Origin: Xestospongia bergquistia
Taxonomy: Eukaryota > Porifera > Demospongiae > Haplosclerida > Petrosiidae
Length of the DNA: 64,000 bases
Reading direction: 5' to 3'
Assembly: GCA_963965975.1 (NCBI GenBank)
Contig: OZ014414.1
Span: forward strand, 9,295,230-9,359,229
Below the pieces are notes generated by a model that saw only the letters and a list, made by a program, of their open reading frames with translations, did no database searches and was not told the origin of the DNA. Each line of letters opens with the position of its first letter. The first letter of the stretch is position 1. Below, in pieces: positions 17,886-60,903 of this stretch. Both the position numbers and the translations under genes were made by a program.

Positions 17886-19133
17886 ATGGCTGGTAGACTA
17901 GGAGGTTTAGGAGAAGAGCGAGAAGCTGATGCTGCCATTCAAGAGATTGCAGAGAAGGTAGTTAAGTAAAAATACTAAAAGTTTGATTATATTACTATTG
18001 TTAGGTCAAAAGTACTGTAGAGGAACAAAGTGGACAATCGTTCTCTGAATATATAGCTATAACATATTGTACACAAGTAGTTGCTGGTATTAACTATTTT
18101 ATTAAGGTATGTGTTGACCTTTGACCTTATCATAATTAATTAGAATTAATGACCCTTGCTCTACCTGATACTTGCTCACTAGTATTCAGTGTATGATGAA
18201 AATGAATAAATTTCCTGTAATATAATTGTGTTATTGTTGTTAAAATATAAGAATTAGTACTAATGCTTTCTACTAAACAGACATGAGCCAAGTCTTTGAT
18301 CTTCTATTATCCCAAATACGTAATGTACATATTATATAACCAATACAACCCACTATCCAATACAGTAATGTTCATGACCACTGATGATGACAGTTGATCT
18401 AACTGTTGAAACGTTTGGCAAAGAAAATTGTTTTGTTTGGTGAAAGATCAAAAAATAAGCATATTGTAAACTTACCCAAACATCCAGGCCTCTTTCGTAC
18501 TATCCAATACAATCATATTAAACTATTCTTTTAAAGATATTGTTACTAATATGAATACAATTATTATTATAACAAGTACAAATACCAGTGCTGTAATGTT
18601 ATATTAATATAAGATAATATTTGCTTCTTCATTATCTATCATCAAATAGTTCTTCTTCCCTATATGGTAATTGCTGCTTTTTTTGCTAGCAAATCAGTTG
18701 TGCCGTTTACATTTGCATGCCACACCCATTCTAAGGAAAAAGCATCTGTTATCGTTTCATGTAATAAATTGTATCAAGTAATTATTCACTTTCAAATATA
18801 ATATTATCAATATATTATGTAACAACTACTATAGTACTGCTGAGATGATTATTGTAATAAGATGATATTGTTAAACAGACAATATGGACTTTCTATTAGA
18901 CTTGTTGTAAAATGCTACTCTTTTTAATTTCATATTATAAGTATTATAATAATTATAGTCTTGTCGACCTTAATTAATATTTAATTGCTTCTCCCATTAC
19001 TCCCGCCCCCTAGATTAAAGTGGGTTCTACTGACTATATTGCTGTCCGTGTCTACCAAAACCTTCAACAAGATATCTCCTTGTCTGGATATAAACTGGAT
19101 ATGACAGCAGACAGTCCTATTGATTATTTTTAA
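17886..19133 (+). CDS. Stefin (cystatin A/B family) 3
   Basis: Three phase-0 exons: 17886-17957, 18005-18106, 19014-19133; 97 aa. The canonical loop is kept (TQVVAGINYFIK), followed by IKVGSTDYIAVRV and a C-terminal SPIDYF close to the family's usual ending. The N-terminus has Gly-Gly (GGLGE). Intron 2 is unusually long (907 bp) for this region and holds a possible retroelement scrap (about 18360-18440) and a block (about 18650-18810) that recurs upstream of the A genes. Exon 3 remnants at 32050 and 36200 look like relics of copies of this gene. Confidence 0.9.
18355..18440 (+). ncRNA. Hammerhead-like core in stefin 3 intron 2 (uncertain)
   Basis: The string CTGATGA, a potential 6-bp stem (ACAGTT/AACTGT) with a 5-base loop, then GAAACG follow in hammerhead order. 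The stem is offset by unpaired bases and no convincing stem III or cleavage site can be drawn. Such cores are known in Penelope-like retroelements, so this may be a decayed piece of one. Self-cleavage is not claimed. Confidence 0.25.
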
Positions 19134-19258: not shown

Positions 19259-19722
19259 ATGGCTGATGACGAGCGCCATAAACCAGCCAGTACTGGAGCT
19301 AAAGTAGCAGATTCTCTAACTCCAACTCCTCTAGACGACAAAATGAAGGAGATAGCTGGAAAGGTTTGAAGGAACACAACAATGATTATTTTTATTTTTT
19401 TCTATTTTAGCTAAAAACTGAAGCTGAGAAGAAGACAAAACAATCATACAGTTCATTTTCACCACGTTTGTATATTAAAAGTAGCTCAAACTATTGTGTT
19501 AGAGTGAGTCACATATTAATTGTGTGGGAGGATATTGTACTGTTGTAATAGAGTGTTAATATTAAAACTATTGCATTATCTATCAACTTAAAATGGTCTT
19601 TCTTTTATTAGTATGAACACAGTGGTCATCTACTTGATATAGCTGGTAAAGTTGCATTTGGCAAAGTATCAGGTCTGAAAGTGAAAGATAATGTCAGAGA
19701 AATTGACCTCATGTCACTGTAG
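19259..19722 (+). CDS. Stefin-like gene A1 (altered inhibitory loop)
   Basis: Three phase-0 exons: 19259-19363, 19411-19503, 19612-19722; 102 aa. The N-terminal exon carries VADSLTPTPLDDKMKEIAGK, corresponding to the stefin N-terminal arm and the start of the helix; exon 2 ends at SNYCVR where stefin exon 2 ends at NYFIK; exon 3 is a short strand-rich tail ending DLMSL. The QVVAG loop is missing: the place reads LYIKSSSNYCVR. It is the first member of the A-B-C triplet array. Papain-type inhibition is therefore doubtful, and its role is unknown. Confidence 0.8.
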
Positions 19723-20292
19723 CTTATTGTGAACTGTTTTAATTATAAGACATCAACTAAACTCATTCAGACAATAGCTGTTGTAGTATAACTATCATTT
19801 TATCAATGAAATTGTGTCTAGAATATTAATTATCATTGTATTCTTAATAAAAGTGTTGTTTTTAAATTCCCTTAAATTAACAATACAGTAATGTATTGTT
19901 GTTAATGCTGTTTTGTTAGTCAAACTTCAAACTAAAAAACAATTTGTATTGTCAAATAGCAAACATGCATATGTTCAGTCCTTAATGAATGACCATATAT
20001 GGCAATAGTGAGCTGATTTGACACAATAGATAGCATTAGTATTTCTTCCATTACTATAAACAGTTATCATAATCAAAATACCACAGATATTCCTTTAATC
20101 TTAATTGTATATCAATAAACTATTTTAACATTATACTTCATATCAATGACAAGTGAACACAATATAATTATTAGAGTTTTTACAGACAGTAAGATAGGGG
20201 TATCTCCAATACATCCCAATTTATATATATATAGGAATGTTAATTAAAAACGTATATCCTGCATTCATATGGTCACTGCAAAGGAACACTCC

Positions 20293-20300
20293 TACGCGAG
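20293..20300 (+). promoter_or_regulatory. Conserved CGCGAG promoter element of B genes
   Basis: TACGCGAG lies about 115 bp before the B1 ATG. ACGCGAG recurs before B2 (28553) and B3 (33410), and GCGCGAG before B4 (37552), each followed by a GTACTGCAGTAGC-like block and CAGC(A/T)GCT. CpG-containing hexamers are rare in this AT-rich sequence, so the conservation stands out. Confidence 0.5.
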
Positions 20301-20414
20301 TACTACAGTAGTTAGCAGCTGCTATAACTCCATTGACTGGTTGTGCGAAGATCTTCATTGCTCTGTTAGCTACTAAGAACTTCATTGATCTGTTAGCAAG
20401 TAAACTAACTCACA

Positions 20415-20851
20415 ATGGCTGATGACGAACGCCATAAACCAGGAGATATACCACCACCCAGAGCAGATGCTTTAACTCCTGTTAGAGCAACAGCTAAAGA
20501 ACAAGATATAGCAATGAAGGTATATATATATTGTTAGGAATGTTCTATCTGGTATCTTGTATATATCTATATGATGTAGATGAAGTCTGAAGCACAGAGA
20601 GTAGCTGGTCAGGCTTTCAATAATTATGAGGTAGCCTATTATATCAAGAGTGGTAATAAATATTGTTTTAGGGTAAGTAAGTTTGACATTTTTCATTTAT
20701 TTATTGTTTTATCTATCTTTGTCCTGATATGTGTGTATTATAGATTTGTATTGATGTTGGTCTTATTGATGTCTGTGGGAAGTATTCCTTTGGTAAGGTA
20801 TCAGAAGTTACTGTGAGGGGAGTCTCAAGTAATGACACAATGACATTGTAA
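20415..20851 (+). CDS. Stefin-like gene B1
   Basis: Three phase-0 exons: 20415-20519, 20580-20672, 20744-20851; 101 aa. The N-terminus is Pro-rich (DIPPPRADALTPVRATAKEQ); exon 2 has VAYYIKSGNKYCFR and exon 3 ICIDVGLIDVCGKYSFGKV, ending NDTMTL. The exon junction between CFR and ICIDVG matches the stefin junction YFIK|VHVG, and the ending matches stefin HDELTYF in place. The first loop is about three residues shorter than QVVAG. Cys residues at YCFRIC and DVCG are constant among B genes. Confidence 0.8.
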
Positions 20852-21138
20852 ATAGCATATGATAACTCTCTCAATTGTTCTTAATTTTTAATAATTTTTA
20901 TTATTTCTTCCATTGAGTTTATTGTATATTGATGACTTTTAGAATATTATATAATTTGTATTTCACTTGTAATGGAAATTGTTGATCTTTGAACACTTTG
21001 TTGTCAAAATCAAGATAGTTGCTTTAATTGTGTTTACATCATTCAACATAATTTATTTAAAAACAACCAAAACAACATTTCTATTTGTATGATGAGTCAG
21101 CAAATATAATTAAGTCACTAAACAAATTAATAGCAATA

Positions 21139-21559
21139 TTACCAATTTAACTTCATTGGCTCTGTTTTAGGGTCATTGATCTTCTTTGCTTTAACTTCAT
21201 CAACCATACCACCACAATATTCTCCACGGACATTAATTACTCCATCATCAACACCAACCTGTTAACACAACATGTAATGAACTAATTATGACAAGATCTT
21301 ACTCTGAAACAATATATATCACCATTATTAATGAAAAATTCAACATTGTAATCAGTGTATTTCTTCCCACCATTTAATTTCTTCTCTGCATCACTCCTCA
21401 TCTAGACAAAGCAATATTTGTTACATTCAAATGTGATAGTTTATCTCTTACTTTCTCGGCTATTTTTTTCTGCGCCTCATTTGGTTTCTCTGGTTCCAAA
21501 GCAGCCGCTGGAGGAGGTGGTATGTATTCCGGAACAGGACGCTCGCCGTATTTCGACAT
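21139..21559 (-). CDS. Stefin-like gene C1
   Basis: Minus-strand exons 21452-21559, 21303-21401, 21139-21258, phase 0; 108 aa. The start ATG at 21559 (MSKYGERPVPEYIPPPP) is preferred because it matches the other C copies. Exon 2 has YNVEFFINNGDIYCFR and exon 3 VGVDDGVINVRGEYCGGMVD, ending KLNW. The C-terminus carries a Lys-rich insertion (VKAKKINDPKTEP) not found in A or B. The 3' end faces B1, 287 bp away. Confidence 0.8.
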
Positions 21560-23421
21560 GTCGAGATCACTTGAAGACGACTTCACAAGCAAGACGCTTA
21601 AGTAAATATATTACATTGAGCCACGCCCTGTTTATAATGAACTTCCAGTATTTAATTATTTAAATATTTATAATAACAGTTATCCCTCAATCTATATAGT
21701 GTACAGTTTTAGATGTAGTGTGTTTTAAACTTCATTTAAAAAATCAGTGCATGCATCTGATGACATCATGTAATGATCTTTCTACCATTCACTTAAATTC
21801 CTCAGTATCTTCAATAGTCATAATATACAACTAGAACAATGATATTTGACATGAAATATTTATATCAGCAGTCATTATACATAAGAACAAAATAACAAGT
21901 CCATATATCATTTTATAGTAATAATATAATATTGTATGAATTCTGTTTAAAGATAATTAGATTAACTATATACATAACAGATGTTCTACAGATATAGTAG
22001 TTTGACCTTGGGAATACTTTTGTGTACATAGAACTAATTAATTATCAGTGACTAAATCTTATTTTTATATGCAAAGAGGAAATAAGTATGTTAACTTTAT
22101 CAGTACAATAACGACCTCATTGAGACTAATTATAACTTACTACTATAGATAGGGTCAGTACCTCCAGACTAGACACTAGTATATTACTAATAGTTACTAG
22201 TAACTTACAAACAACAACAACAATTATATATTCTCATATTTTCAAGTAGTTATATTATAGGATATATCAACAAATATAAGTCATTATTAACTATTTATTA
22301 TTACAAGATGAACTAAACCAAATTAGATTACTTAACGAAGGGTTGTTACCAGTGATAGTGATATAATACATTTAGGAAATATTGTTATTAATTATTATAA
22401 ATATTCATTATTAAAGATAAGGACATAAGTTTGTGTGTGTATTATATAGTATAATGAAAATAAGTTAATTAAATAATGTCATAGTAGTAGTGTTATACAT
22501 GTGTCCAGTGGAGTGTTCCATAATAGTTTATAAGGACTCTTTGTGGTCATATTTTAATACCAGTGAGTAAATGTCATTATATTACTAGAGGAAATAAGTA
22601 TGTTCATTTCATATATACAATGTGACCACAAATACTAATTATTACATAGTGATAGAATTGATAATAGTTATGAATCATACACTACATCTAATTACATGCT
22701 GACACACATCATGTAAATAGTATTTACTCATTGTTACATCAGACCATTAGTTGAGTCAATATATTGCTTTATTATATAGTTACATGTTATTGAGACATGC
22801 CCTTTCCAAAGTTGCCGTGTTCATCAATTTAGTGATGATTATTTTTAGATACTTAAAATGTCTTTATTTAAAATGTAACAAGACTCCAACAGCTACTCTG
22901 ATATTATAAATGTAATTCATGTTACACTATAATATCATGTGGTCAGTCACATAAGAAATTGTCCAAGCAAACTAGACTATCTTATAATAATATCTAACTA
23001 TAGTTATATATCTTTCAGTAAATTCCAATAAAACAAACTATACTTATATATTGGAGCTTGTATGTATTATGAGTGAACTATTCAATGATCCTATTACCCA
23101 CTATATGTATAAACTTTAATGTACATATTTATCCTTCTATTCTATAGCTATTATATGTTTCTTTATTGCTAGATGGAGTGTAACTAATGTCAATGTCAAA
23201 TGTTTTGTTTATTGAACTAAAAGATTTTCAGTTGACAGCTGGACTTCTTTAATTTCAATAAAACATATTACAACTGACTACTAACTGCTCATTATACTTC
23301 CCTCCTCCACTATATAATACAACCAACAATACTATATATTATCATTGAATTGTAGTACAAACAATACACTAACTAGTTGTCACAATGAGGATAACCCTGT
23401 CAATTGTCACTTTCAACAATC
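21560..23421. other. Unit spacer downstream of C1, no gene seen
   Basis: 1.86 kb of AT-rich sequence repeated, with small differences, after C2 (29806-31720) and in part after C3 (34634-35460). Shared landmarks are AGTTTTAGATGTAGTGTG, GATGACATCAT and GTCAGTACCTCCAGACTAG. No conserved open frame was found, so it is a duplicated spacer that may hold promoters for C genes (at its left edge). Confidence 0.6.
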
Positions 23422-23928
23422 ATGGCTAGTCTTAAGAGTGTTCCTGCTGGTCCTCCTCCAGGATCAACTGGTCCTCCTGATGTTGCTACTCCCACTCCTG
23501 CCACTGGAAATGAACAGACAATAGCAAATAAAGTTAGTTTGTCATTTATGTCATGAAACCACTCTCATTATAATTGGTTCTAGTAAAGATGGCCATATTA
23601 TTATATACTATATGATCAGCACACATTATATAGTATGTAAATGGTATATATTTATGACAGGTCAAGTCTTCCGCTGAAAAACAAACAAAGTTAAAGTTTA
23701 GTCAGTTCAATGCAGTCTCTTACATCAAGCAAGGAAGCACCTATTTGATTAGGGTAATTATCATAACAAGTACATACCTTAACTCGCTGTGCTTACCTTT
23801 TCCTTTCTCCTAAGGTGAATGTTGGTGACCAGTTTATTGATATATTGGCTGATTATAAAATGAACAGGGCCTCACTCAAAGCTCCACCACAATTAGGCAA
23901 GGGAGCTAATGACTCAATGTCATTTTGA
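23422..23928 (+). CDS. Stefin-like gene D (single copy)
   Basis: Three phase-0 exons: 23422-23532, 23661-23753, 23815-23928; 105 aa. This is the most telling link between the array and true stefins: LKFSQFNAVSYIKQGSTYL followed by IRVNVGDQFIDIL aligns with CSTB KKFPVFKAVSFKSQVVAGTN and FIKVHVGDEDFVHL, but three loop residues are missing, leaving only Q-G of QVVAG. The N-terminus is rich in Pro/Gly (VPAGPPPGSTGPP). No second copy of this gene occurs in the window. Confidence 0.82.
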
Positions 23929-24215
23929 TTTAGTCTTAGCTATGACACTATTATATATAGTGTGTGTGTATTAGATTATTAATAATAGCTAGCAATTCAA
24001 ATTTTAAATATTCTTATAGACAAGTACTGGTATATATAATATATTTTATATAGTACACATTTAGTTGATATGAACTATGTATGAATTTATATGGTGTTAC
24101 AGATTACATACAACTCTGGGTCAGTTATTATAAGAACACTACTCCTCATCATAGTAGTAGTAGTAGTAGCCACAATGCTATGATAAAAACAAATGGTTGT
24201 AGTGAGTGATCTTCA

Positions 24216-24419
24216 ATTCATAAATAGTTGATAAAGGTCTCTACATCAAACCATTATGTTATGAGGTGTGTCTCTCTATTACATTACAATAAGTACTCAA
24301 ATTATGACAAGTTCACAACATTACTATTGTGTAACTGGTACTCTGTTCATAATAGATATAACATATCTACATTATCATGTGATCCTTTAAACAAGTATAT
24401 AATGTATAATACATAATAC
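24216..24419 (+). other. Duplicated short open frame, copy 1
   Basis: About 61 codons open from ATG at 24228 to TAA at 24417-24419, ending CDPLNKYIMYNT. A second copy (35816-36000) is open over the same length with substitutions but no indels, and the 3' end of the block also precedes the death-domain gene at 51860. Conservation could reflect recent duplication only. No function is recognised. Confidence 0.25.
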
Positions 24420-24532
24420 ACAATATAGACTGGGAATTTCCACAAAACAATTTGACTATTCACTAGTATCAATGAATCACACATGACTATTGATAACAAA
24501 GTGAAAAATTTAAGTTGAAGATAATTAACACT

Positions 24533-24610
24533 AGGTGTGACTAATGAATGTTATTGTCTTCCTACAAATTAGTCACACCTTAAAAGTAACCAGACAAAAG
24601 TGGGTGTGTC
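24533..24610 (+). promoter_or_regulatory. Orphan death-domain-gene upstream hairpin (copy 0)
   Basis: AGGTGTGACTAAT (24533-24545) pairs with ATTAGTCACACCT (24568-24580). Compared with the copy at 52041, both arms changed (G to A on the left, C to T on the right), so pairing is preserved. The following TTAAAAGTAACCAGACAAAA block matches the death-domain gene upstream region, but no death-domain exon follows here. Confidence 0.6.
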
Positions 24611-25085
24611 TGCTGTTGTTAGGACTGCTCCTAGCCGGAGGAACAAGTACTGCATATTCATAATGGGCGTGGTGCCATTAATTATTATTGACAATTTTAA
24701 TGAATAATAAACACAGTAACAAAACATAGTGCACATGATATTGTCTTCAGTTTGAATTACTAAGAGCTGTGATGGACTCAAGTCTTCCCTCAGAATTAAC
24801 AAATCTACTAAATACTTTCTTTATATATGTAACTCTTCAGATAACCCTTCATATTCATCTCTTACAAGAATATATAAATAACTGACATGAAGAATGTAGT
24901 AAGAATTGTTATTGTCAATATTATAATTCTTTTGTTAGTGAAACAACCGACATGAGAAATCTGAAGTCACAAAGAACAAAACAGATAAGTACTCACAGTA
25001 ACTTTAACAAGTGACCAGGATGCTAAATTAATTAGAGTACATGTAGAACAATGTGATACTGAGTATTACAACATTGGGTACAAGT

Positions 25086-25522
25086 TCTAGAAGTTAGTAT
25101 TGTCTAATGTTACTGATATCACAGATGAAGATATGGCTCACTTATCTACTATGTTATCAAGTAATACAACTTTAAAAGAACTACATCTCTACAGCTGTAA
25201 CATCACTGATAATGGAGTCCGATATATCTGTGAAGGACTTACTAAAAACCATGAAACATTGACTGTGTTGAACATTGGATATAATCGTCAGATCACTTCA
25301 GTTAGTACCAGTACAATAGCAGATCTAATACAAACAACTATATCATTGACAAGACTATATCTCTACAATACTTCACTGAACAATGATGATATCAAGACAA
25401 TATGTACATCACTTACCAAAAATACTACAATAAGGGAACTATTCTTATCAATTCATCATGAAGAGTATTGTAAAAAGTTAGACAGTTATCAAATTATTAA
25501 AGACAGACTTCAGTTTTGGTAA
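25086..25522 (+). pseudogene. LRR-gene 3' fragment (copy 0)
   Basis: An open frame of about 145 codons, matching the last three-quarters of the LRR exon of the two full genes (repeats such as LKELHLYSCNITDNGVRYIC and LTRLYLYNTSLNNDDIKTIC, ending IIKDRLQFW). The death domain, central domain and coiled coil are absent; sequence before 25086 is not similar. The frame is open, so a short LRR protein is conceivable, but lack of a proper first exon favours a relic. Confidence 0.65.
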
Positions 25523-25914
25523 TAGTAAGTAGATTGTTGTTTATTCTTAATATGTCTTTTCGCTTACTTTTATTTTCTCTTTAAAGTTCCCTTGACTTTA
25601 TGTATTTAATATGTATAACAGACACACATGTTATCAGTACTTAAGTAGGAGTGGCTTGGATTGTCAATTGAAATGTATTGACAGAAATAATGAATATCTC
25701 ACTTAAAACTGATCAAAATCTTTCAAGTGTTTGTAATATTTCTTTCCATGATAACCTAGTTATAAGCTAAGACAAGGTTTCAGACACAATTGGTCAAATG
25801 CTGAACTTGTTCATCTTTCTCTCTACCTACTATCTTGTTTGCATTATTTGCATTGACTGATATTACTCATCTATTAAACATTAATATCATTTTTTAGAAA
25901 ATGTTTTTATTTAC

Positions 25915-26000
25915 TTGTATATATATATATACATACATACATATATACATACATACATATATATATGTATACAGTTTCGTTTTAGTACATTATATATATA
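25915..26000. repeat. TATA/CATA microsatellite
   Basis: Runs of TATA, ACATACATAC and ATATATATGTATAC downstream of the LRR fragment. Confidence 0.8.
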
Positions 26001-26501
26001 TAAGATATATTACATCATTTGACTGCCAACAAATATATATCACATGGTTTACACAAGTTATGACTAGTACTAAATATATTGTCCTATATATACTTAGTTA
26101 ATTTTGAAATATAGAACTTATTTTGATAGTCCAATATTGAAATTTATTGAACAAAACTAACTAACTGTATTACTGTAAAAACTAATTAGTTTATTTAATC
26201 AAATATGATTATTACAGATTACAGGTAGCAAACATATTTTGATGCAAAATGTAAGGATAATACTTTGATTGATTATTAATGTACTTCTGTTTATGAAGTT
26301 ATATAAACAGGAGACATTAATAAGCAAAATGGTACTGTGGTTAATTTTTGCATAATAATACAATCTGTATAACTATGTATAAGTTAAATTAACTAAATAT
26401 ATATACAACAATACACTTAACAAAACAATACATGTACACAGATGTAATTAGTATATATTGATAACTGCATATATTTATGTACTCCTTTCTACTGTAGTAT
26501 G

Positions 26502-26962
26502 TTAGTAATAAGATATTATAACTTGTATAATGACTGCTAACATCAACACTGCAAAGAGGGGAGAGCTTAGAAAACCAACAACTCCAGAAGGACAAGGATC
26601 AATATTGGTAACATGACATGTTGACAAATTAAAGTAATATTCATTAAGCAGAGGAGTACCACAACATTCCATGTAATCAATAAACTGTGTCACATTATTT
26701 TGACAAGAACCATCAATACAATAATAAACATAATTGCTATAATCAAGACTGGAAGCACGAGCAATTGTAAGAAGAGGTATTATCACACCTGAAGTAATCC
26801 TACATAAATAATGTAACATAGAATATTGTTGATTGATTCTTCCACATAAACCATCATTATAATAAGAGGCAAAATCAGTATAATTAATACAGCTGTAGTA
26901 TGAGACATACAAATCTTTACATTCACTAGAACAGTACTCATTGACAGCACTGTTTAGTTGAT
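26502..26962 (-). pseudogene. Cys-rich surface protein, 3' fragment (copy 0)
   Basis: On the minus strand, an open frame from about 26962 matches residues from the middle of the intact protein at 50151-50948 (here EYCSSECKDLYVSYYSC, YCIDGSCQNNVTQF, ECCGTPLL) and ends in a different hydrophobic tail (SPLFAVLMLAVIIQVIISYY). The signal peptide and N-terminal third are not found. The Ser/Thr-rich stem is much shorter than in the intact gene. It is either a relic or a diverged member with an unseen 5' exon. Confidence 0.6.
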
Positions 26963-27356
26963 TTTACAAAAAAAGAGTAAATTTGTATATCATTGATATA
27001 ATAGAGATAATATTATGTTAACTTTACACTCTATCTTGATATAAATGAGTTCAGTATATAACAGCAATATATATAATCAAGAACAGATCACTTTGCCCAG
27101 TGAAAAAACTCACCAGTTCTTTGTTGATTGGATTGAGAAATGAATTAATTATAAGAATTCACTGTTACATGTACATATTGTATACTAAACATCTAGAAAT
27201 GTTTTTTTATGGCAATTGTTTCTTTTTACTTACAAACCAATTGCGTTGTTTAGTATTGCATGCCACATGCACTCATTTAAAGGAGAAAGCACCTGTTACC
27301 ATTACATGTAATAAATAGATTTGTATCAAGTAGTTATCACTCACAGATAAGATTGT

Positions 27357-27830
27357 ATGGCTGATGACGAGCGCTTTAAATCGGCCACTAGTACTGGAAT
27401 TAAAGTAGCAGATGCTCTAACTCCAACTCCTCTAGATGACAAAATGAAAGTGATAGCTGAAAAGGTTTGAAGGAACACAAAAATGATTATTATTATTGTT
27501 TATGTTTTAGCTTAAAACTGAAGCTGAAAAGAAGACAAAACAATCTTACAGTTCATTTTCACCACGTTTGTATATTAAAAGTAGCTCAAACTATTGTGTT
27601 AGAGTGAGTCACATATTAATTGTGTGGGTGGATACCGTATGTTGTTATAAGTAATAGAGTGTTAATAATAAAAACTATTGTATTATGTATCAACTTTAAA
27701 ATGGTTTTTCTTTTATTAGTATGAACACAGTGGTCATCTACTTGATATAGCTGGTAAAGTTGCACTTGGCAAAGTATCAGGTCTGAAAGTGAAAGATAAT
27801 GTCAGAGAAAGTGACCTCATGTCACTGTAG
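27357..27830 (+). CDS. Stefin-like gene A2
   Basis: Exons 27357-27464, 27511-27603, 27720-27830, phase 0; 103 aa. The N-terminus is MADDERFKSATSTGIKVADA, one residue longer than A1. Exon 2 is identical in sense to A1 around LYIKSSSNYCVR; exon 3 has GKVALGKVSG and ends RESDLMSL. The 100 bp before the ATG (AGAAAGCACCTGTTACC, TATCAAGTAGTTATCACTCA) match part of the intron of stefin 3, indicating that the promoter derives from there. Confidence 0.8.
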
Positions 27831-28649
27831 CTTATTGTGAACTGTTTTAATTATAAGACATTGACTAAACTCGTTCAGACAATAGCTGTTGTAGTATAAC
27901 TCATTTTATCAATTAAATTGTGTTTAGAGTATTAATTATTATTGTATACTTAATAAAAGTGTTGTTTTTTAAATTCGCTTAATTTAACAATACAGTAATG
28001 TATTGTTGTTAATGTTCTTTTGTTAGTCAAACTTCAAACTAAAAATAATTTGTATTGTCAAATAGTAAATGTGTTCAGTGCTTAATGGATGACCATATAT
28101 GGCAATAGTGAGCTGGTTTTAACACAATAGATAGCATTAATATTTCTTCCATTACTATGATAGCAAGTAGATATCAATCAAAATACCACAGATATTCTTT
28201 TAATTTTAATTTTTCAATGTTTTCTTATTGTGGACCAGTAACTACTTTAATAAGAGACTTCTCATAATCAACAATAAATTCTTTAGAATTAGTTTCTCCT
28301 TAGCAACAAACAAACTATTAAGTTTACATTATTATAACAAATAACTTTGAGACTTCAAAATTTGAATTGATAGTGTATAATATCAATAAACTATTTTAAC
28401 ATTATACTTCATATCATTGTCAAGTGAACACATATTAGAGGTAAACAGTTTTCACAGACAATAAGATAGAAGTGTGAATAACTTCTCCAATACATCCCAA
28501 TTTATATTACATATAGGAATGCTAATTACTGTTTTTGTAACTCGCTACTCTTACGCGAGAAGCACTGCAGTAGCCTGCAGCTGCTAAAACTCCATTGATC
28601 TATTATACGAAGAGCTTCATTGATCTGTTAGCAAGTAAACTAACTCACA

Positions 28650-29086
28650 ATGGCTGATGATCAACGCCATACACCAGAAGATATACCACCACCCAAAGCA
28701 GATGCTTTAACTCCTGTTAGACCAACTGCTAAAGAACAAGAAATAGCAATGAAGGTATATATATATATTGTTAGGAATGATCTATCTGGTATCTGGTATA
28801 TATCTATATGATGTAGATGAAGTCAGAAGTACAGAGAGTAGCTGGTCAGGCTTTCAGTAATTATGAAGTAGCCTATTATATCAAAATTTGTGATAAATAT
28901 TGTTTTAGGGTAAGTAAGTTTGACATTTTTCATTTATTTATTGTTTCATCTATCTTTCCCCTGACATGTGTGTTATAGATTTGTATTGATGTTGGTCTTA
29001 TTGATGTCTGTGGGAAGTATTCCTTTGGTAAGGTATCAGAAGTGACTGTGAGGGGAGTCTCAATTAATGACACAATGACATTTTAA
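28650..29086 (+). CDS. Stefin-like gene B2
   Basis: Exons 28650-28754, 28817-28909, 28979-29086, phase 0; 101 aa. It differs from B1 in the loop region: VAYYIKICDKYCFR, where the SG of the other B genes is IC, adding a Cys. The tail is GVSINDTMTF. A CGCGAG element lies about 95 bp upstream. Confidence 0.8.
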
Positions 29087-29381
29087 ATAGCATATGATAA
29101 CTCTCTCAATTATTGTTTGTTTTTAAAAAATTTTTATTTCTTCCATTAATTGAGTTTATTATATATTAATGACTTTTAGAATTGAATGTTATATAATTTG
29201 TATTTCACTTATAATGGAAATTGTGGATTTGTGAACACTTTGTTGTCAAAATCAAGATAGTAGCTCTAATTGTGTTTACATCATATAGATCATTCAACAT
29301 AATTTATTAAAAAAACAACATTTCTATTTGTATGACGAGTCAGCAAATATAATTAAGTCACTAAACAAATTAATAGCAATG

Positions 29382-29805
29382 TTACCAATTTAGCTTCATG
29401 GACTCTAATTTTTCAGAGTCATTGATCTTCTTTGCTTTAACTTCATCAACCATACCACCACAATATTCTCCATGGACATCAATTGCTCCATCATCAACAC
29501 GAATCTGTTAACACAACATGTAATGAACTAATTACAATAATACCTTACTCTGAAACAGTATACATCACCATTATTAATGTACCACTCAACATTGTAAGCA
29601 GTATATTTTTTCCCACCATTTAATATCTTCTCTACATCACTCCTCATCTAGACAAACGAACGTTTGCTGTATTCAAATGTGATAGTTTATCTCTTACTTT
29701 CTCGGCTATTTTTTTCTGCACCTCATTTGGTTTCTCTGGTTTCAAAGTAGCCAGTGGAGGAGGTAGTATGTGATCCGGAACTTTACGCTCTTCGTATCCC
29801 GACAT
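29382..29805 (-). CDS. Stefin-like gene C2
   Basis: Minus-strand exons 29698-29805, 29549-29647, 29382-29504; 109 aa. Start MSGYEERKVPDHILPPP. Exon 2 has YNVEWYINNGDVYCFR; exon 3 starts IRVDDGAIDVHGEYCGG and has one extra codon (NDSEKLESMKLNW) relative to C1. The gene converges on B2. Confidence 0.8.
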
Positions 29806-31934
29806 ATCGAGATCACTTGAAGACGATCAATTGAAGCATGACGCTTAAGTACATTGAGCCACGCCCAGTTTATAATGCTTCCAGTATTTAATCATTTAAA
29901 TATTTGCAACATTATAATAACAGTTATCACTCAATCTATATAGTGTACAGTTTTAGATGTAGTGTGTTTTTTAAAACTTTATTTGAAAAATCAGTGCACG
30001 TGCCTGCATCTGATGACATCATATGATGATCTTTCTACCATTCATTTAAATTCCTCAGTATTTCCTATAGTCATAATATACAACTAGAACAATAATATTT
30101 GACATGAAATATTTACATCAGTAGTCATTATATATAAGAAAAAATAACAAGTCCATATATTATGTTATAGTAATAATATAATATTGTATGAATTCTGTTT
30201 AAAGATAATTATATTAACTATATACATAACAGATGTTCTACAGATAACATTGTATGGACTTTATTGTGACTCAGGGAATACTTTTGTGTACATAGAACTA
30301 ATTAATTATCAGTGACTAAATCTTATTTTTATATTACAAAGAGGAAATAAGTATGTTCACTTTATCAATACAATATGGCCTCGTTGAGACTAATTATAAC
30401 TTACTACTATAGATAGGGTCAGTACCTCCAGACTAGACATTAGTATATTACTAATAGTTAGCAGTAACTTACAAACAATAATTGTATATTCTTATATTTT
30501 CAAGTAGATACATTATTGTAGTAGTTATTAACAACATAATGATAATTAAATGATGACAATATAAATATACAATGGCTCTAGTGTAGTACTTTATTTACCA
30601 GCTATCTTAATTATATATTCTCATATTTTTTGAGTAGTTATATTATAGGATTTTATATGAATTTAAATTGAATTATCTCATTTGTTCATCTTCGAATACT
30701 TTAGTGTCAAAATCAAGATAGCTACTTTAATAACCTCATTGATAGTGGTTACATCTCTTAACATATTATATTGAAATTAAAAATAACATTTCTAATAATA
30801 AGACAAGTCAACAAATATAAGTCATTATTAACTATTTATTATTACAAAATGAAGAAAACTAAATTAGATTACTTAATGAAGGGTTGTTACCAGTGATAGT
30901 GATATAATACATTTAGTAAATATTGTTATTAACTACATGTTGTCATTATTAAAGATAAGGACATAAGTTTGTGCGTGCATTATATAGTATAATGAAAGTA
31001 AGTTGATTAAATAATGTCATAGTAGTAGTGTTGTACATGTGTCCAGTGGAGTGTTCCATAATAGTTTATAAGGACTCTTTGTGGTCATGTTTGTAATACT
31101 AACTTAATCAGTGAGTAAATATCATTATATTACTAGAGGAAATAAGTATGTTCATTTCATATGTACAATGTGACCACAAAAAATACTAATTATTAACATA
31201 GTGATAGAATTGATAATAGTCATGAATCATACTAATATTCATATTGACACATATCATGTAAATAGTATTTATTACTCATTGTTACATCAGATCATTATTG
31301 TATATAGTTAAGTCAATATATTGTTTTATTATTTAGTTACATGTAATTGGGACATGCCCTTTCCAAAGTTGCCATGTTCATCAATTTAGTAATGATTATT
31401 TTTAGATACTTAAAATGTCTTTATATTCAAAATGTAACCAGACTCCAATAACTATATATACTCTGTTATATGTAAATCATTTTACACTATAATCTTATGT
31501 CGTCAGTACTAGTCATACAAGAAAATGTTCAAGCAAGCTAGACTGTCTTATAATAATATCTGACTATAGTTATATATCTTTCAGTAAATTCCAATAGAAC
31601 AAAGTATACTTATATATTGGAACTTGTACATATTATGAGTGAACTATTTCAATGATCCTATTACCCACTATATGTATATAATTTTAATGTACATAACAAT
31701 GCATTAAATTTAACTAACTTTCTCATCTATAACTAACTAAAGTTATTCCATTGGCAGAGAACTAACTATAACTAACTAAAATTATACAAAGCTAAACTAA
31801 ACAACACTAATATAATTGCAACTATTATATAACAAGTACATGTACTAGTGTATTTGCTTCTTCAGTATCTATCATAAAAAAGTTGTTTCCTATATGTGGC
31901 AATTATTCCTTTGTTACTTACAAACCAGCTGTAC
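29806..31934. other. Unit spacer downstream of C2, no gene seen
   Basis: Copy of the spacer at 21560-23421, with an additional duplicated piece around 30480-30840 (two copies of a TTATATTCTCATATTTT-type block). The last 100 bp resemble the region upstream of A2. Nothing coding was recognised. Confidence 0.55.
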
Positions 31935-32047
31935 TGTCACATACACTCATTTAAAGGAGAAAGCACCTGCTACCATGTAATAATTAAATAGATTTATATC
32001 AAGTAATTATTCACGCACAGATATGATATTATGAATATTCTATGAAT

Positions 32048-32104
32048 ATGTTTACCTGGATATAAACTGGATATGACAGCAGACGGTTCTAATGAATATT
32101 TTTA
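32048..32104 (+). pseudogene. Relic of canonical stefin exon 3
   Basis: ACCTGGATATAAACTGGATA and the following codons give GYKLDMTADGSNEYF then stop, matching the end of stefin 3 (GYKLDMTADSPIDYF). No exons 1-2 precede it. The same relic lies before A4 (about 36200), so the ancestral repeat unit began with a canonical stefin. Confidence 0.7.
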
Positions 32105-32199
32105 ACGAAGAAAATCATCAAGTTTTGAATTTTAGTATATTGATAATAAAAAGGGCGTGGCTCGTAGCTTAGCGTATTTCTTACTAAGTATAGCACAGC

Positions 32200-32672
32200 A
32201 TGGCTGATGACGAGCGCTTTAAACCAGTCAGTAGTGGAGTTAAAGTAGTAGCTGCACTAACTCCAACTCCTGTAGACGACAAAATGAAAGTGATAGCTGA
32301 AAAGGTTTGAAGGAACACAACAATGATTATTATTATTGTTTTCTATTTTAGCTAAAAACTGAAGCTGAAAAGGAGACAAAACAATCTTACAGTTCATTTT
32401 CACCACGTTTGTATATTAAAAGTAGTTCAAACTATTGTGTTAGAGTGAGTCATATATTAATTGTGTGGGAGGATATTGTACTGTTGTTATAAGTAATAGA
32501 GTGTTAATAATAAAAACTATTGCATTATCTATCAACTTAAAAATAATCTTTCTTTTATTAGTATGAACACAGTGGTCATCTACTTGATATAGCTGGTAAA
32601 GTTGTATTTGGCAAAGTATCAGGTCTGAAAGTGAAAGATAATGTCAGAGAAACTGACCTCATGTCACTGTAG
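32200..32672 (+). CDS. Stefin-like gene A3
   Basis: Exons 32200-32304, 32352-32444, 32562-32672, phase 0; 102 aa. N-terminus MADDERFKPVSSGVKVVAAL; PTPVDDK where A1, A2 and A4 have PTPLDDK. Exon 2 has EAEKETKQSYSSFSPRLYIK; exon 3 GKVVFGKVSG, ending RETDLMSL. It sits about 95 bp after the canonical stefin exon 3 relic. Confidence 0.8.
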
Positions 32673-33485
32673 CTTATTGTGAACTGTTTTAATTATAAGA
32701 CATCGACTAAACTCATTCAGACAATAGCTGTTGTAGTATAACTATCATTTTATCAATTAAATTGTGTCTAGAATATTAATTATCATTGTATTCTTAATAA
32801 GTGTTGTTTTTAAATTCCCTTAAATTAACACTACAGTAATGTATTGTTGTTAATGTTGTTTTGTTAGTCAAACTTCAAACTAAAAAACAATTTGTATTGT
32901 CAAATAGCAAACATGTTCAGTGCTTAATGAATGACCATATATGGCAATAGTGAGCTGGTTTTAACACCCAATAGATAGCATTAGTATTTCCTCTATTACT
33001 ATAATAGTAAGATATTTTAATTAATAATAATCAAAATACCACAGATATTCCTTAAATATCAATTGTTCAATGTTTTCTTATTGTGGACCAGTAACTACAT
33101 TAATAAGAGACATCTCATGATTAATAATAAACTCTTTAGATTATAGTTTCTCCTTAGTAACAAACAAACAATATTAAGTTTACATTATTATAACAAATAA
33201 CTTTGAGACTTCAAAATTTGAATTAATAGTGTATATCAATAAACTATTTTAACATTATACTTCATATCATTGACAAGTGAACACATATTAGAGGTAGACA
33301 GTTTTTACAGACTGAGGTGTCTCCAATACATCCCAATTTATGCATATAGGAATGTTAATTACAAAACGTATATCCTGCATTCATATGGTCACTACAAAGG
33401 AACACTCCTACGCGAGCAGTACTGCAGTAGCTAGCAGCTACTAAAACTTCACTGAAGAGCTTGTTAGCAAGTAAACTAACCCACA

Positions 33486-33922
33486 ATGGCTGATGATGAA
33501 CGCCATAAACCAGAAGATATACCACCACCCAGAGCAGATGCTTTAACTCCTGTTAGACCAACAGCTAAAGAACAAGATATAGCAATGAAGGTATATATAT
33601 ATTGTTAGGAATGATCTATCTGGTATCTTGTATATATCTATATGATGTAGATGAAGTCTGAAGCACAGAGAGTAGCTGGTCAAGCTTTCAATAATTATGA
33701 GGTAGCCTATTACATCAAAAGTGGTAATAAATATTGTTTTAGGGTAAGTAAGTTTGACATTTTTCATTTATTTATTGTTTTATCTATCTTTGTCCTGATA
33801 TGTGTGTGTTATAGATTTGTATTGATGTTGGTCTTATTGATGTCTGTGGGAAGTATTCCTTTGGTAAGGTATCAGAAGTGACTTTGAGGGGAGTCTCAAG
33901 TAATGACACAATGACATTTTAA
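33486..33922 (+). CDS. Stefin-like gene B3
   Basis: Exons 33486-33590, 33651-33743, 33815-33922, phase 0; 101 aa. MADDERHKPEDIPPPRADAL, then the same second exon as B1 and B4 and a third exon with VTLRGVSSNDTMTF. B3 and B4 share this third exon, suggesting the last duplication involved these units. Confidence 0.8.
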
Positions 33923-34216
33923 ATAGCATATGATAACTCTCTCAATTGTTGTTTGTTTTTAAATTTTTTTCTTGCATTGATTTTATTGTGTTATTATTTT
34001 TAGAATGTTATATAATTTGTATTTCGCTTATAATGGAAATTGTTGATCTTTGAACACTTTGTTGTCAAAATCAAGACAGTTGTACATGTTTTAATTATAT
34101 ATATAATTGTGTTTATATCAATCATTCAACATAATTTATTAAAATAAAAACATTTCTATTTGTATGACAACTAGTCAGCAAATATAATTAAGTCACTAAA
34201 CAAATTAATAACAATG

Positions 34217-34633
34217 TTACCAATTTAACTTCATTGGCTCTGTTTTAGGGTCATTGATCTTCTTTGCTTTAACTTCATCAACCCTACCACCAGAATATTC
34301 TCCACAGACATCAATTACTCCATCATCAACACCAACCTGTTAACACAATATGTAGTTATGAACTAATTATGATAAGATCTTACTCTGAAACAATATATAT
34401 CGTTATTATAAATGTACCAGCCAACATTGTAAGCAGTATATTTCTTCCCACCATTTAATATCTTCTCTGCATTACTCCTCATCTAGACAAACAGACGTTT
34501 GTTGTATTCAAATGTTATCTCTTACCATCTCCGCTATATCTTTCCGCGTCTGATTTGGTTGCTCTGGTTTCAAAGCAGCCGGTGGAGGAGGTGGTAAGTC
34601 TTTCGGAACAGGACGCTCGCTGTATCCTGACAT
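34217..34633 (-). CDS. Stefin-like gene C3
   Basis: Minus-strand exons 34526-34633, 34384-34482, 34217-34336; 108 aa. Start MSGYSERPVPKDLPPPPPAA; exon 1 ends IAEM instead of IAEK. Exon 2 has YNVGWYIYNNDIYCFR; exon 3 VGVDDGVIDVCGEYSGGRVD, where one Cys has moved relative to C1 (CGEYS versus RGEYC). Confidence 0.8.
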
Positions 34634-35480
34634 GTCGAGATCACTTGAACAACTGACTTCACAAGCAAGAAGTAATAGTTTATTTGAGCCACGCCCTGTT
34701 TATAATAATGAACTTTTACTTCCAGTATTTAATCATTTAAATATTTGTATACATTATAATAACACTTATATATCACTCAATCTATATAGTGTACAGTTTT
34801 AGATGTAGTGTGTTTTTTAAAACTTCATTTTAAAAATCAGTGCCTGCATCTGATGACATCATATGATGATCTTTCTACCATTCACTTAAATTCCTCAGTA
34901 TTTCCTATAGTCATAATGTACAACTAGAACAATAATATTTGACATGAAATATTTACATCAGCAGTCATTATATATGAGAACAAAATAACAAGTACATATA
35001 TCATGTTATAGTAATAATATAATATTGTATGAATTCTGTTTAAAGATAATTAGATTAACTATATACATAGCAGATGTTCTACAGCTGTTTTTGTATCATT
35101 ATAATATGACTTAGGGAATACTTTTGTGTACATAGAACTAATTAATTATCAGTGACTAAATCTTATTTTTATATTACAAAGAGGAAATAAGTATGTTAAC
35201 TTTATCAGTACAATATGACCTCATTGAGACTAATTATAACTTACTACTATAGATAGGGTCAGTACCTCCAGACTAGACATTAGTATATTACTAATAATTA
35301 CTAGTAACTTACAACAATAATTGTATATTCTTATATTTTCAAGTAGATACATTATTGTAGTAGTTATTAACAACATAATGATAATTAAATGCTAACAATA
35401 TATATAGCTCTAATGTAGTACTTTATTTATCAGCTATCTTATTTCACAATGCTCAATCCTTAAAGCATACAATATGTAGG
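34634..35480. other. Unit spacer downstream of C3, no gene seen
   Basis: Shorter copy of the spacer at 21560-23421. It is cut off near 35450, where a B-gene fragment follows. Confidence 0.5.
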
Positions 35481-35489
35481 TGTATTAAT

Positions 35490-35635
35490 AGCGGTTAGAC
35501 CAACAGCTAAAGAGCTGGTATCTTGTATATATCTATATGATGTAGATGAAGTCTGAAGTAAAGAGAGTGGCTGGTCATGTTTTCAGTAATTATGAGGTAA
35601 CCTATTATATCAAAAGCGGTAATACACAGGAAAAA
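35490..35635 (+). pseudogene. Truncated B-type stefin-like fragment
   Basis: The end of a B exon 1 (GTTAGACCAACAGCTAAAGA) is joined to the middle of intron 1 and a B exon 2 (MKSEVKRVAGHVFSNYEV, TYYIKSGN), with exon 3 and the initiator missing. Part of intron 1 is deleted. It is clearly non-coding now. Confidence 0.75.
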
Positions 35636-35815
35636 TATATTGAATACATTCATTGTTTTTATGTTGTAAATATTCAGGTTTTTGTGTAATTACAATTGTA
35701 AATATACCAACAAAAATGTACCATGTATTTTTTTTAGGTGTCGTATATATACATGATATATTACATATTTTGTACAACATTGTTGTAATATATACATTAT
35801 TAATACAATTGTTGA

Positions 35816-36003
35816 TGAAGGTCTCTACATCAAACCATTATGTTATGAGGTGTGCTTCTGTATTACGTTACAATAAGTACTCAAATTATGACAAGTTCAC
35901 AACACTAGTATTATGTAACTGGTACTCTGTTCATAATAGATCTAACATATCTACAGTATCATGTGATCCATTAAACAAGTATATAATGTATAATACATAA
36001 TAC
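35816..36003 (+). other. Duplicated short open frame, copy 2
   Basis: Second copy of the block at 24216-24419, open from ATG 35815 to TAA, ending CDPLNKYIMYNT. It is directly followed by the death-domain-gene upstream region (36004-36180), itself cut off after TTAAAAGTCACCAG. Confidence 0.25.
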
Positions 36004-36106
36004 ACAATATAGACTGGGTATTTCCACGAAACAATTTGACTATTCACTAGTATCAATGAATCACACATGACTATTGATAACAAAGTGAAAAATTTAAGTT
36101 GAAGAT

Positions 36107-36180
36107 AATTAACACTAGGTGTGCTAATGAATGTTATTGTCTTCCTACAAAATTAGCCACACCTTAAAAGTCACCAGCAG
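36107..36180 (+). promoter_or_regulatory. Orphan death-domain-gene upstream region (truncated)
   Basis: AGGTGTGCTAATG, the loop and ATTAGCCACACCT of the hairpin are present, with one G missing from the left arm. Sequence then switches to the canonical stefin exon 3 relic (about 36190-36250), marking a recombination joint. Confidence 0.55.
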
Positions 36181-36189
36181 AAGTATATT

Positions 36190-36255
36190 CTATGAATATG
36201 TTTACCTGGATATAAACTGGATATGACAGCAGACAGTTCTAATGAATATTTTTAA
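36190..36255 (+). pseudogene. Relic of canonical stefin exon 3, second copy
   Basis: GYKLDMTADSSNEYF then stop, the same relic as at 32048. It lies just before A4. Confidence 0.65.
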
Positions 36256-36361
36256 CGAAGAAAATCATCAAGTTTTTAATAAAATTTAAAATTTTATAAT
36301 AAAAAAGGGCGTGGGTCGTAGCTTAGCGTAAAGGAAAATTTCTTACTAAGTATAGTACAAC

Positions 36362-36809
36362 ATGGCTGATGATGAGCGCTTTAAATCAGCTAGTACAGGA
36401 ATTAAAGTAGCAGATGCTCTAACTCCAACTCCTCTAGACGACAAAATGAAAGTGATAGCTGAAAAGGTTTGAAGGAACACAACAATGATTATTTTTATTG
36501 TTTATGTTTTAGCTTAAAACTGAAGCTGAAAAGGAGAAAAAACAATCTTACAGTTCATTTTCACCACGTTTGTATATTAAAAGTAGCTCAAACTATTGTG
36601 TTAGGGTGAGTCATATATTAATTGTGTGGGTGGATATTGTACTGTTGTTGTTAATATTAAAAACTCTATCAACTTTAAAATGGTTTTTCTTTTATTAGTA
36701 TGAACACAGTGGTCATCTACTTGATATAGCTGGTAAAGTTGCATTTGGCAAAGTATCAGGTCTGAAAGTGAAAGATAATGTCGGAGAAAGTGACCTCATG
36801 TCACTGTAG
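36362..36809 (+). CDS. Stefin-like gene A4
   Basis: Exons 36362-36466, 36513-36605, 36699-36809, phase 0; 102 aa. MADDERFKSASTGIKVADAL; exon 2 has AEKEKKQSYSSF; exon 3 ends NVGESDLMSL (Arg to Gly relative to A2). The second intron is the shortest of the four A genes. Confidence 0.8.
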
Positions 36810-37675
36810 CTTATTGTGAACAGTTTTAATTATAAGACATCGACTAAACTCGTTCAGACAATAGCTGTTATAGTATAACTATCATTTTATCAATTAAATT
36901 GTGTTTAGAGTATTAATTATCATTGTATTCTTAATAAAAGTGTTGTTTAAATTCCCTTAAATTAACAATACAGTAATGTATTGTTGTTAATGTTGTTTTG
37001 TTAGTCAAACTTCAAACTAAAAAACAATTCATATTGTCAAATAGTAAACGTGTTCAGTGCTTAATGAATGACCATATATAGCAATAGTGAGCTGGTTTTG
37101 ACACAATAGATAGCAGTAATATTTCCTCATCTACTATAATAGTAAGATAAAATCAGATATCTATCAAAATACCACAACACTCCAGATGTTCCTTTAATCT
37201 TAATTGTTCAATGTTTTCTTATTGTGGACCAGTAACTACTTTAATAAGAGACATCTCGTGATCAACAATAAACTCTTTAGAATTAGTTTCTCCTTAGCAA
37301 CAATTGCAAACAAACTATTAAGTTTACATTATTATAACAAATAACTTTGAGACTTCAAAATTTGAATTGATAGTATATTATATATATATATCAATAAACT
37401 ATTTTAACATTATACTTCATATCATTGTCAAGTGAACACATATTAGAGGTAGACAGTTTTCAAAGACAATAAGATAGAAGTGTGAATAACATCTCCAATA
37501 CATCGCAATTTATATTACATATAGGAATGCTAATTACTGTATTCATATGGTGCGCGAGAAGTACTGCAGTAGCCAGCAGCTGCTAAAACTCCATTTATCT
37601 ATTATACGAAGAGTTCCATTGTTCTGTTAGGTACTAAGAACTTCGTTGATCTGTTAGCAAGTAAACTAACCCACA

Positions 37676-38122
37676 ATGGCTGATAATGAGCGCAATAAAC
37701 CAAAAGATATACCAACACCCAGAGCAGATGCTTTAACTCCTGTTAGACCAACAGCTAAAGAACAAGATATAGCAATGAAGGTATATATATATATATATAT
37801 ATTGTTAGGAATGATCTATCTTGTATCTTGTATATATCTATATGATGTAGATGAAGTCTGAAGCACAGAGAGTAGCTGGTCAGGCTTTCAATAATTATGA
37901 GGTAGCCTATTACATCAAAAGTGGTAATAAATATTGTTTTAGGGTAAGTAAGTATGACATTTTTTATTTATTTATTGTTTTATCTATCTTTGTCCTGATA
38001 TGTGTGTGTTATAGATTTGTATTGATGTTGGTCTTATTGATGTCTGTGGGAAGTATTCCTTTGGTAAGGTATCAGAAGTGACTTTGAGGGGAGTCTCAAG
38101 TAATGACACAATGACATTTTAA
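37676..38122 (+). CDS. Stefin-like gene B4
   Basis: Exons 37676-37780, 37851-37943, 38015-38122, phase 0; 101 aa. The N-terminus differs most among B genes (MADNERNKPKDIPTPRADAL). Exons 2 and 3 encode the same protein as B3. A (TA)n run has expanded in intron 1. The upstream element reads GCGCGAG. Confidence 0.8.
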
Positions 38123-38389
38123 ATAGCATATGATAACTCTCTCAATTGTTCAAATTTTTATTATTTCTTGCATTGAGTTTATTGTATATTGATGACTTTT
38201 AGAATGTTATATAATTTGTATTTCACTTATAATGGAATTGTTGATCTGTGAACACTTTGGTGTCAAAATCAAGATAGTTGCTTTAATTGTGTTTACATCA
38301 TTCAACATAATTTATTGAAATAAAAACATTTCTATTTGCATGACGAGTCAGCAAATATAATTAAGTCACTAAACAAATTAATAACAATG

Positions 38390-38811
38390 TTACCAATTTA
38401 ACTTCATTGGCTCTGTTTTAGGGTCATTGATCTTCTTTGCTTTAACTTCATCAACCATACCACCAGAATATTCTCCATGGACATCAATTATTCCATCATC
38501 AACACGAATCTGTTAACACAATATGTAATGAACTAATTACAATAAGGCCTTACTCTGAAACAATACTTATCTTTATTATAAATGTACCAATCGACATTGT
38601 AATCAGTATATTTTTTATTATTATTTAAAATCTTCTCTGCGCCACTCCTCATCTAAACAAAGCAAAGTTCGTTGTATTCAATGTTATTGTTTATTTCATA
38701 CTTTTTCGGCTATTTTTTCTGTTCATCATCTGGTTTCTTTGGAGTCGAAATAGCAGCTGGAGAAGGTGGTGTATATTCTGGACAAACAGGAAGCTGGACG
38801 TATCCTGACAT
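38390..38811 (-). pseudogene. Stefin-like gene C4, frameshifted
   Basis: Minus-strand exons 38702-38811, 38554-38652, 38390-38509. Exon 1 starts MSGYVQLPVCPEYTPPSP and would end with QKKIAEK, but the A-run that is seven bases in C1 and C2 is six here, so the frame meets TAG after QKK. Exons 2 (YNVDWYIYNKDKYCFR) and 3 (IRVDDGIIDVHGEYSGG, ending KLNW) are otherwise open with intact splice sites. This is a very recent loss, or a sequencing or assembly error in a homopolymer. Confidence 0.75.
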
Positions 38812-60900: not shown

Positions 60901-60903
60901 TAT

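Follow-up and report, generated by a model that had tools for sequence, protein, structure and literature searches.

Stefins (type 1 cystatins, MEROPS I25A) plug papain-type proteases by means of an N-terminal glycine, the QxVxG motif and an LP pair (PMC7913475, PMC2784779). They are described as occurring singly or in small families and as having diversified little in function, although a table lists an expansion of stefin A in rodents (Kordis and Turk 2009, PMC2784779). The same article presents the disappearance of the original inhibitory activity as a trend in the vertebrate cystatin families. In a survey of 58 basal metazoan species, the glycine and QxVxG were reported to be conserved in all sequences, the myxozoan ones included (PMC7913475). 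The QVVAG form of the motif has also been described as a strained hinge for domain swapping, in which the length of the loop matters (PMC6349918). The locus studied here is a 64-kb stretch of the genome of the sponge Xestospongia bergquistia (contig C4:9295230-9359229, in an assembly of 146.5 Mb and 21 contigs), called the window below, in which three stefin genes (S1-S3) stand beside an array of related genes whose first loop has been rebuilt.

The array genes belong to four groups (A, B, C and D); a fifth one (E) and further C copies are found elsewhere in the genome. The reading that we favor overall, with a probability of about 0.6, is that A-E are stefin-derived, non-inhibitory binding proteins of stefin fold, of which C would be in conflict with its partners. 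As far as sequence can tell, the family is derived from stefins but lacks the features that define the inhibitory ones.

The gene array and its missing inhibitory contacts

Gene models were derived from the splice-site pattern and place A1-A4 and B1-B4 on the + strand, C1-C4 on the - strand, and a single D gene among them. The features of the window are the following:

10768..11568, + strand: S1, three-exon canonical stefin (QVVAG; 26.5 bits with Pfam Cystatin)
12604..13170, + strand: S2, stefin that is a tandem copy of S1 and has QVVEG (Pfam Cystatin 21.9 bits)
17886..19133, + strand: S3, canonical stefin (QVVAG), in whose exon 3 the duplicated unit begins (Pfam Cystatin 45.1 bits)
19259..19722, + strand: A1, stefin-derived, loop 1 shortened; exons 19259-19363, 19411-19503, 19612-19722 (AlphaFold2 and Foldseek)
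20415..20851, + strand: B1; exons 20415-20519, 20580-20672, 20744-20851
21139..21559, - strand: C1; exons 21452-21559, 21303-21401, 21139-21258 (AlphaFold2 and Foldseek)
23422..23928, + strand: D, earliest-branching family member in the tree; exons 23422-23532, 23661-23753, 23815-23928
27357..27830, + strand: A2 (gene model)
28650..29086, + strand: B2, loop IKIC (gene model)
29382..29805, - strand: C2 (gene model)
32056..32105, + strand: remnant of S3 exon 3, 5' of A3 (sequence match)
32200..32672, + strand: A3 (gene model)
33486..33922, + strand: B3 (gene model)
34217..34633, - strand: C3 (gene model)
35515..35624, + strand: relic of a fifth B copy, exon-2 region only (92% over 110 nucleotides)
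36206..36255, + strand: remnant of S3 exon 3, 5' of A4 (sequence match)
36362..36809, + strand: A4 (gene model)
37676..38122, + strand: B4 (gene model)
38390..38811, - strand: C4, exon 1 frameshifted, in-frame TAG (gene model)

The first-pass annotation had proposed a thirteen-gene array with three phase-0 exons per gene, and this holds for 12 of the 13. All the A-D genes have three exons separated by two GT-AG introns (13/13), and the exception to the open frame is gene C4, in which exon 1 has a length of 2 mod 3 and a TAG in frame before the donor, the other exons being multiples of three. An A-run in this exon has one A fewer than its counterparts in C1 and C2. Gene C4 is either a pseudogene or a homopolymer assembly error, two options that are inseparable from sequence. 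Among the neighboring stefins, S2 has a QVVEG loop rather than QVVAG, an acidic change in an otherwise stefin-like protein.

The loop-1 residues are IKSS in A, IKSG or IKIC in B, INNG or IYN in C and IKQG in D, exactly as the annotation had quoted them. QxVxG is missing from all 15 intact family members; the alignment shows loop 1 to be shortened by three residues, and in the models of A1 and C1 it is reduced to a two-residue turn. Mis-splicing can be ruled out as the source of this gap, which lies within exon 2 and is contiguous in the DNA. The Gly-Gly of S1-S3 is aligned to AD (A1, A2, A4, B1-B4), VA (A3), AA (C1), LA (C2), PA (C3), AT (C5, C8), PD (D) and ST (E), without a glycine in any of the 15 members, and the alignment suggests that the loss of the N-terminal glycine is most evident in B, C and E. 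The LP of the second hairpin is absent in A-E, yet also in S1-S3, which hold the other motifs; thus, its absence alone is weak evidence. With respect to the D-x-L-x-Y-F of the stefin reference, the C termini read D-S-M-S-F (D), D-T-M-T-F/L (B), D-L-M-S-L (A), E-[PS]-M-K-L-N-W (C) and D-S-L-E-F plus further residues (E), in no case with a tyrosine.

Since the N-terminal Gly-Gly, QxVxG and LP are gone or remodelled, inhibition was probably lost, and it is very likely that A-E would be non-inhibitory toward papain-type cathepsins. Similarly, because a two-residue turn replaces the QVVAG hinge, the members should be monomers without domain swapping, which the models make likely. One alternative is that A-E are still protease inhibitors whose re-shaped wedge, short hairpins and new N-terminal tail fit a divergent sponge cathepsin, a legumain-type enzyme or a microbial protease. 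The retention of the cystatin fold in the A1 and C1 models is compatible with this, as is the diversification of C in its N-terminal tail, given that the N-terminus of stefins takes part in the contact with the protease (PMC2784779); moreover, fetuin-B, which has a cystatin fold, has been reported to inhibit astacin, from another protease class (PMC6400186). Nevertheless, the lack of all three contacts in 15/15 intact members makes such an inhibitor rather unlikely.

Stefin ancestry and predicted fold

The stefin layout noted in the annotation is retained. Both introns are in phase 0 and fall at columns 53 and 89 in 18/18 intact proteins (15 family members plus S1-S3) of an alignment that was built without intron information, with S1-S3 as the only comparison partners. 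This degree of sharing exceeds chance. The maximal 10-residue hydropathy over the first 35 residues ranges from -0.71 to 1.54 in the same 18 proteins, and the absence of a signal peptide was thus confirmed, at the level of simple hydropathy.

The three canonical neighbors are indeed stefins: S1 and S3 score above the gathering cut-off of the Pfam Cystatin profile (PF00031, 22.2 bits) and S2 slightly below it. Seven A-D proteins (A1, A4, B1, B2, C1, C3 and D) searched singly against Pfam did not reach the cut-off of any other family, giving only sub-threshold noise. A PF00031 search of the genome gave no match, but 14 control genomes gave equally none, so this result is uninformative. Profiles of the family itself were more telling. 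When the 12 intact window members were compared with 177,635 PDB sequences, the top three matches were stefin B (E 0.0021-0.003), followed by a serine protease in fourth place (E 0.057) and cystatin A in fifth (E 0.074). A profile built from all intact members except A2 and B3 (13 of 15) again ranked stefin B in the top three positions (E 4.7e-4 to 5e-4), cystatin A being fourth (0.094). The direct alignment of the family with the window stefins by hhalign gave E-values of 1.7e-6 and 9.2e-7, with 38% identity over 52 columns and a three-residue gap at QVVAG. Accordingly, a placement in another family, which the annotation had named as adverse to its proposal, did not result from the profile searches. 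In a FastTree phylogeny of the 18 intact proteins and two human stefin fragments, A-E are set apart from the stefins (support 0.988); D adjoins the stefins (0.900), and after it come A, B and a group formed by E and the C copies. Since this tree groups A-E apart from the stefins, loop 1 was most likely lost once in the history of the family.

The structures of A1 and C1 were modelled with AlphaFold2 from window paralogs only, stefins being kept out of the alignment. The A1 model (mean predicted local distance difference test, pLDDT, 79.2; predicted template modelling score, pTM, 0.65) has a helix (27-44) and strands at 52-59, 62-69, 72-81 and 84-94, with two residues (60-61) linking the strands that flank loop 1. 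C1 (pLDDT 79.6, pTM 0.66) likewise consists of a helix and four strands, those around loop 1 spanning 54-62 and 65-72 with a turn at 63-64. The first five of 550 Foldseek matches of A1 in the PDB were the SQT-1C scaffold, stefin B, cystatin A, stefin B and a stefin B tetramer chain (E 0.0029-0.028), the last of which superposes badly (template modelling score, TM, 0.32); ranaspumin-2, cystatin A2, de novo and monellin structures occupy lower ranks. The C1 model matched Dictyostelium cystatin A2 best (E 0.063, probability 1.00) and human stefin A second (0.14, 0.98). Hence the fold unlike cystatin that had been considered beforehand was not obtained, all top five matches of A1 being stefin A or B or an engineered stefin A scaffold. 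The models of A1 and C1 are cystatin-like with stefins as best matches, more weakly for C1, and the predicted cystatin fold may be considered well supported for A and moderately supported for C. The stefin likeness could instead be convergent, or the exons misread, the proteins having some other fold. The seven proteins without a single-sequence Pfam Cystatin match and the modest Foldseek E-values would fit this possibility, but the identical intron positions, the family-profile matches to stefin B, the hhalign result, the tree and the adjacency to S3 make it extremely improbable.

Duplication, dispersal and selection

The copies of the duplicated unit are 84-90% identical and spaced by 8.1-8.2, 4.8 and 4.1-4.2 kb. 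The segment 19084-20108 matches 32056-33066 and 36206-37207, and since both copies start within S3 exon 3, the breakpoint of the unit lies inside this neighboring stefin. With S3 as query, S1-S3 were the sole matches at E<=10 among the best-scored candidates of the genome. The genes of the annotated array are present, but they are only part of a larger family: three intact members lie outside the window, C5 (contig C4:9473 kb), C8 (contig C4:5291 kb) and E (contig C4:9151 kb), together with at least eight broken or partial copies, which makes ten with gene C4 and the B relic. These family counts are lower bounds, as the search scored the best candidates only. The relics outside the window are the following:

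adjoining C5: frameshifted B
contig C4:7215 kb: exon 3 of a B copy, and a C copy interrupted by a stop (two relics)
6219 kb: frameshifted C
contig C13:2905-2908 kb: two relics, one frameshifted, the other exon 3 only
7169 kb: C copy that lacks the start codon and the acceptor AG
6473 kb: one relic known as sequence matches only

Because the dispersed copies have introns and flanking DNA in common with those of the window, they moved as DNA; retroposition can be ruled out, since the outside copies retain both. On balance, it is probable that A-E constitute one lineage-specific family, born from a stefin gene via tandem and later dispersed DNA duplication. The family is young and its copy number is still growing. 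No relatives were confirmed by scans of IMG/VR viral contigs and GTDB prokaryote contigs, the eukaryote side of the search being this genome. The E protein (locus contig C4:9147000-9155500, exon 1 from about 3975) begins with MGNRKSK, which we take to resemble an N-myristoylation signal.

The groups differ in their selective regimes. Pooled Nei-Gojobori ratios are 0.49 for A, 0.52 for B, 1.37 for C (C1, C2, C3 and C5) and 0.60 for S1/S2. The maximum likelihood (ML) omega is 0.43 for A (p 0.029 against 1), 0.41 for B (p 0.043) and 0.39 for both together (twice the log-likelihood difference, 2dl, 18.8 against 1), so that A and B are under purifying selection, with omega about 0.4. Model M2a brought no gain over M1a for A, B or A+B (0.19, 0 and 0). 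For C, the gain was 20.72 with four sequences and 24.91 with five, about 20% of the sites having an omega of 6-9; none of 60 simulations under the null came up to the four-sequence value (largest 4.79), and three topologies gave 20.7, 27.0 and 29.9. The codon models thus support diversification in C, with a signal that comes mainly from exon 1 (likelihood ratio, LR, 16.8). In the five-sequence fit, nine sites exceed 0.9: six within residues 5-29, residues 57 and 58 (strand 2, before loop 1) and residue 84 (beside the second hairpin).

A comparison with non-coding DNA served as a check independent of codon models. Exon 1 of C has 36 variable columns out of 108, against 51/311 in introns and 3' flank (p 0.0003), about a twofold excess. 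Exon 3 is less variable than introns and 3' flank in A (4/111 against 45/381) and in B (4/108 against 42/341; p about 0.01 each), and the other six of the nine exon-intron comparisons were not significant. This test took introns and 3' flanks, the partly unalignable 5' flanks being left out. The within-group synonymous divergence (pS) of exon 3 is 0.021, far below that of exon 1 (0.104) and exon 2 (0.152); this low value in A, B and C may result from gene conversion or from a constraint at the DNA level. Hypervariable loops of the Affimer type were considered and ruled out, loop 1 being identical in the four A copies and little changed in B and C.

The array could also consist of decaying duplicates without function, as may be suggested by the ten broken or partial copies and by the omega of C, which is near 1 with five sequences. 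Decay should nevertheless have left neither the omega of about 0.4 in A and B, nor an exon 3 below intron divergence in these groups and an exon 1 above it, instead of equal to it, in C; open frames and splice sites are, besides, retained in 15 copies. This explanation is therefore improbable.

Other features of the window and of the genome may be mentioned. A large tandem duplication containing leucine-rich-repeat (LRR) genes relates 38974-47045 to 51899-59909 (94.7%) and 50083-51748 to 60827-62492 (95.2%). LRR_6 frames are found beside D (25091-25519) and in the downstream duplication (45915-46721 and 58788-59597), the former sharing about 90% identity with either of the other two over about 510 nucleotides. 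The pattern CG-x-[Ser/Cys]-YAF occurs in two places of the genome, one of them being a CGCSYAF beside papain-family-like frames (contig C9:3186 kb), near 1501-1521 of a silicatein-like locus (contig C9:3184895-3187915). Its serine presumably stands at the position of the catalytic cysteine of cathepsins. The best PDB match of the next frame downstream is silicatein alpha (6zq3, E 1.3e-9), with cathepsins and allied proteases ranking next. This gene suggests that the host is a silicatein-bearing demosponge.

Possible function and comparison with known systems

According to the favored reading, a stefin gene would have been multiplied by tandem, then dispersed, DNA duplication, keeping its three-exon structure and its fold. 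The protease contacts (Gly-Gly, the QxVxG loop and the LP of the second hairpin) are lost or remodelled, so that papain-type proteases could most likely no longer be plugged, and A-E would act as small intracellular binding proteins. Gene structure, homology, the shortening of loop 1, the family size (as a lower bound) and the pattern of selection are shown by the data; the loss of inhibition, the monomeric state and the roles of the groups are inferred from them. C would diversify mostly in its N-terminal tail, a pattern expected at an interface in evolutionary conflict. That A and B have kept a conserved role in binding and that C has one in conflict is a more specific and tentative proposal, with slightly less than even chances. 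A bolder version seems unlikely: the stefin fold would have become an intracellular recognition family, in which a single loop deletion locked the monomer and was followed by expansion to at least 15 genes, E being perhaps membrane-anchored and C in conflict with microbes or selfish partners, as a natural counterpart of engineered stefin binders.

Several observations weigh against the favored reading. With regard to ancestry and fold, none of the seven A-D proteins searched singly reached Pfam Cystatin at E<=1, neither A1 nor C1 had a Foldseek match at E 0.001 or better, and de novo and NTF2-like folds closely follow the two stefin matches of C1. The N-terminal loss is less clear-cut in the A copies and D, which have a glycine two to five columns to the N-terminal side of the lost Gly-Gly. 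As to selection, the all-site ML omega of C does not significantly exceed 1 (1.56 for the four-sequence set, p 0.16; 1.03 for the five-sequence set, p 0.88), exons 2 and 3 alone give a weak signal (LR 6.1 on the best topology), and many C copies are broken, so that part of the change in C may be relaxed. Furthermore, the codon models were run with purpose-written scripts that were not benchmarked against a standard package and do not model gene conversion.

The closest described relatives of A-E are the stefins themselves, human stefins A and B as well as S1-S3. The likeness includes a length of about 100 amino acids, the absence of a signal peptide by hydropathy and the predicted cystatin fold, to which S1-S3 add the two phase-0 introns at the same positions; the C-terminal D-x-[LM]-x-F/L is loosely similar. 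The family differs from them in the loss of Gly-Gly, QxVxG and LP, a loop 1 shorter by three residues, a longer N-terminal tail and a multi-copy history of birth and death. The non-inhibitory cystatins of vertebrates are likewise cystatin-derived paralogs, but they belong to the cystatin class, whereas A-E come from the intracellular stefin lineage of a sponge. Vertebrate families that have lost inhibition include CRES, Spp24 and cathelicidin.

Lineage-specific remodelling of stefins has also been described in myxozoans (atypical stefins, PMC7913475) and in flukes (cystatin-like stefins, PMC9986714). Contrary to A-E, the myxozoan proteins are reported to retain the glycine and QxVxG (PMC7913475), and FhCyLS-2 of flukes is described as secreted, disulfide-bridged and inhibitory (PMC9986714). 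S1-S3, for their part, lack the LD pair which, according to the former article, is present in every sponge stefin surveyed there (as LS in one; PMC7913475); this speaks against the demosponge host suggested by the silicatein-like gene. The stefin A scaffolds of the SQT/Affimer type (6qb2, the top fold match of A1; PMC6588553) also use the stefin fold as a binder with changed surface loops; these are man-made and carry inserted target-binding peptides, whereas loop 1 of A-E is shortened and not hypervariable. No description of a stefin expansion in sponges with loop 1 deleted and QxVxG missing was found in the titles and abstract openings of the open-licence literature, outside which most subscription journals lie.

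A multigene stefin branch without both motifs departs from the picture, drawn in PMC2784779, of stefins as the half of the cystatin superfamily that is stable and has diversified little. Since single-sequence scans with the standard Cystatin profile miss this family, similar branches may be overlooked elsewhere. The family also offers a natural test of the role of loop 1, inhibition and domain swapping both being expected to be absent, with the neighboring S3 as a ready control.

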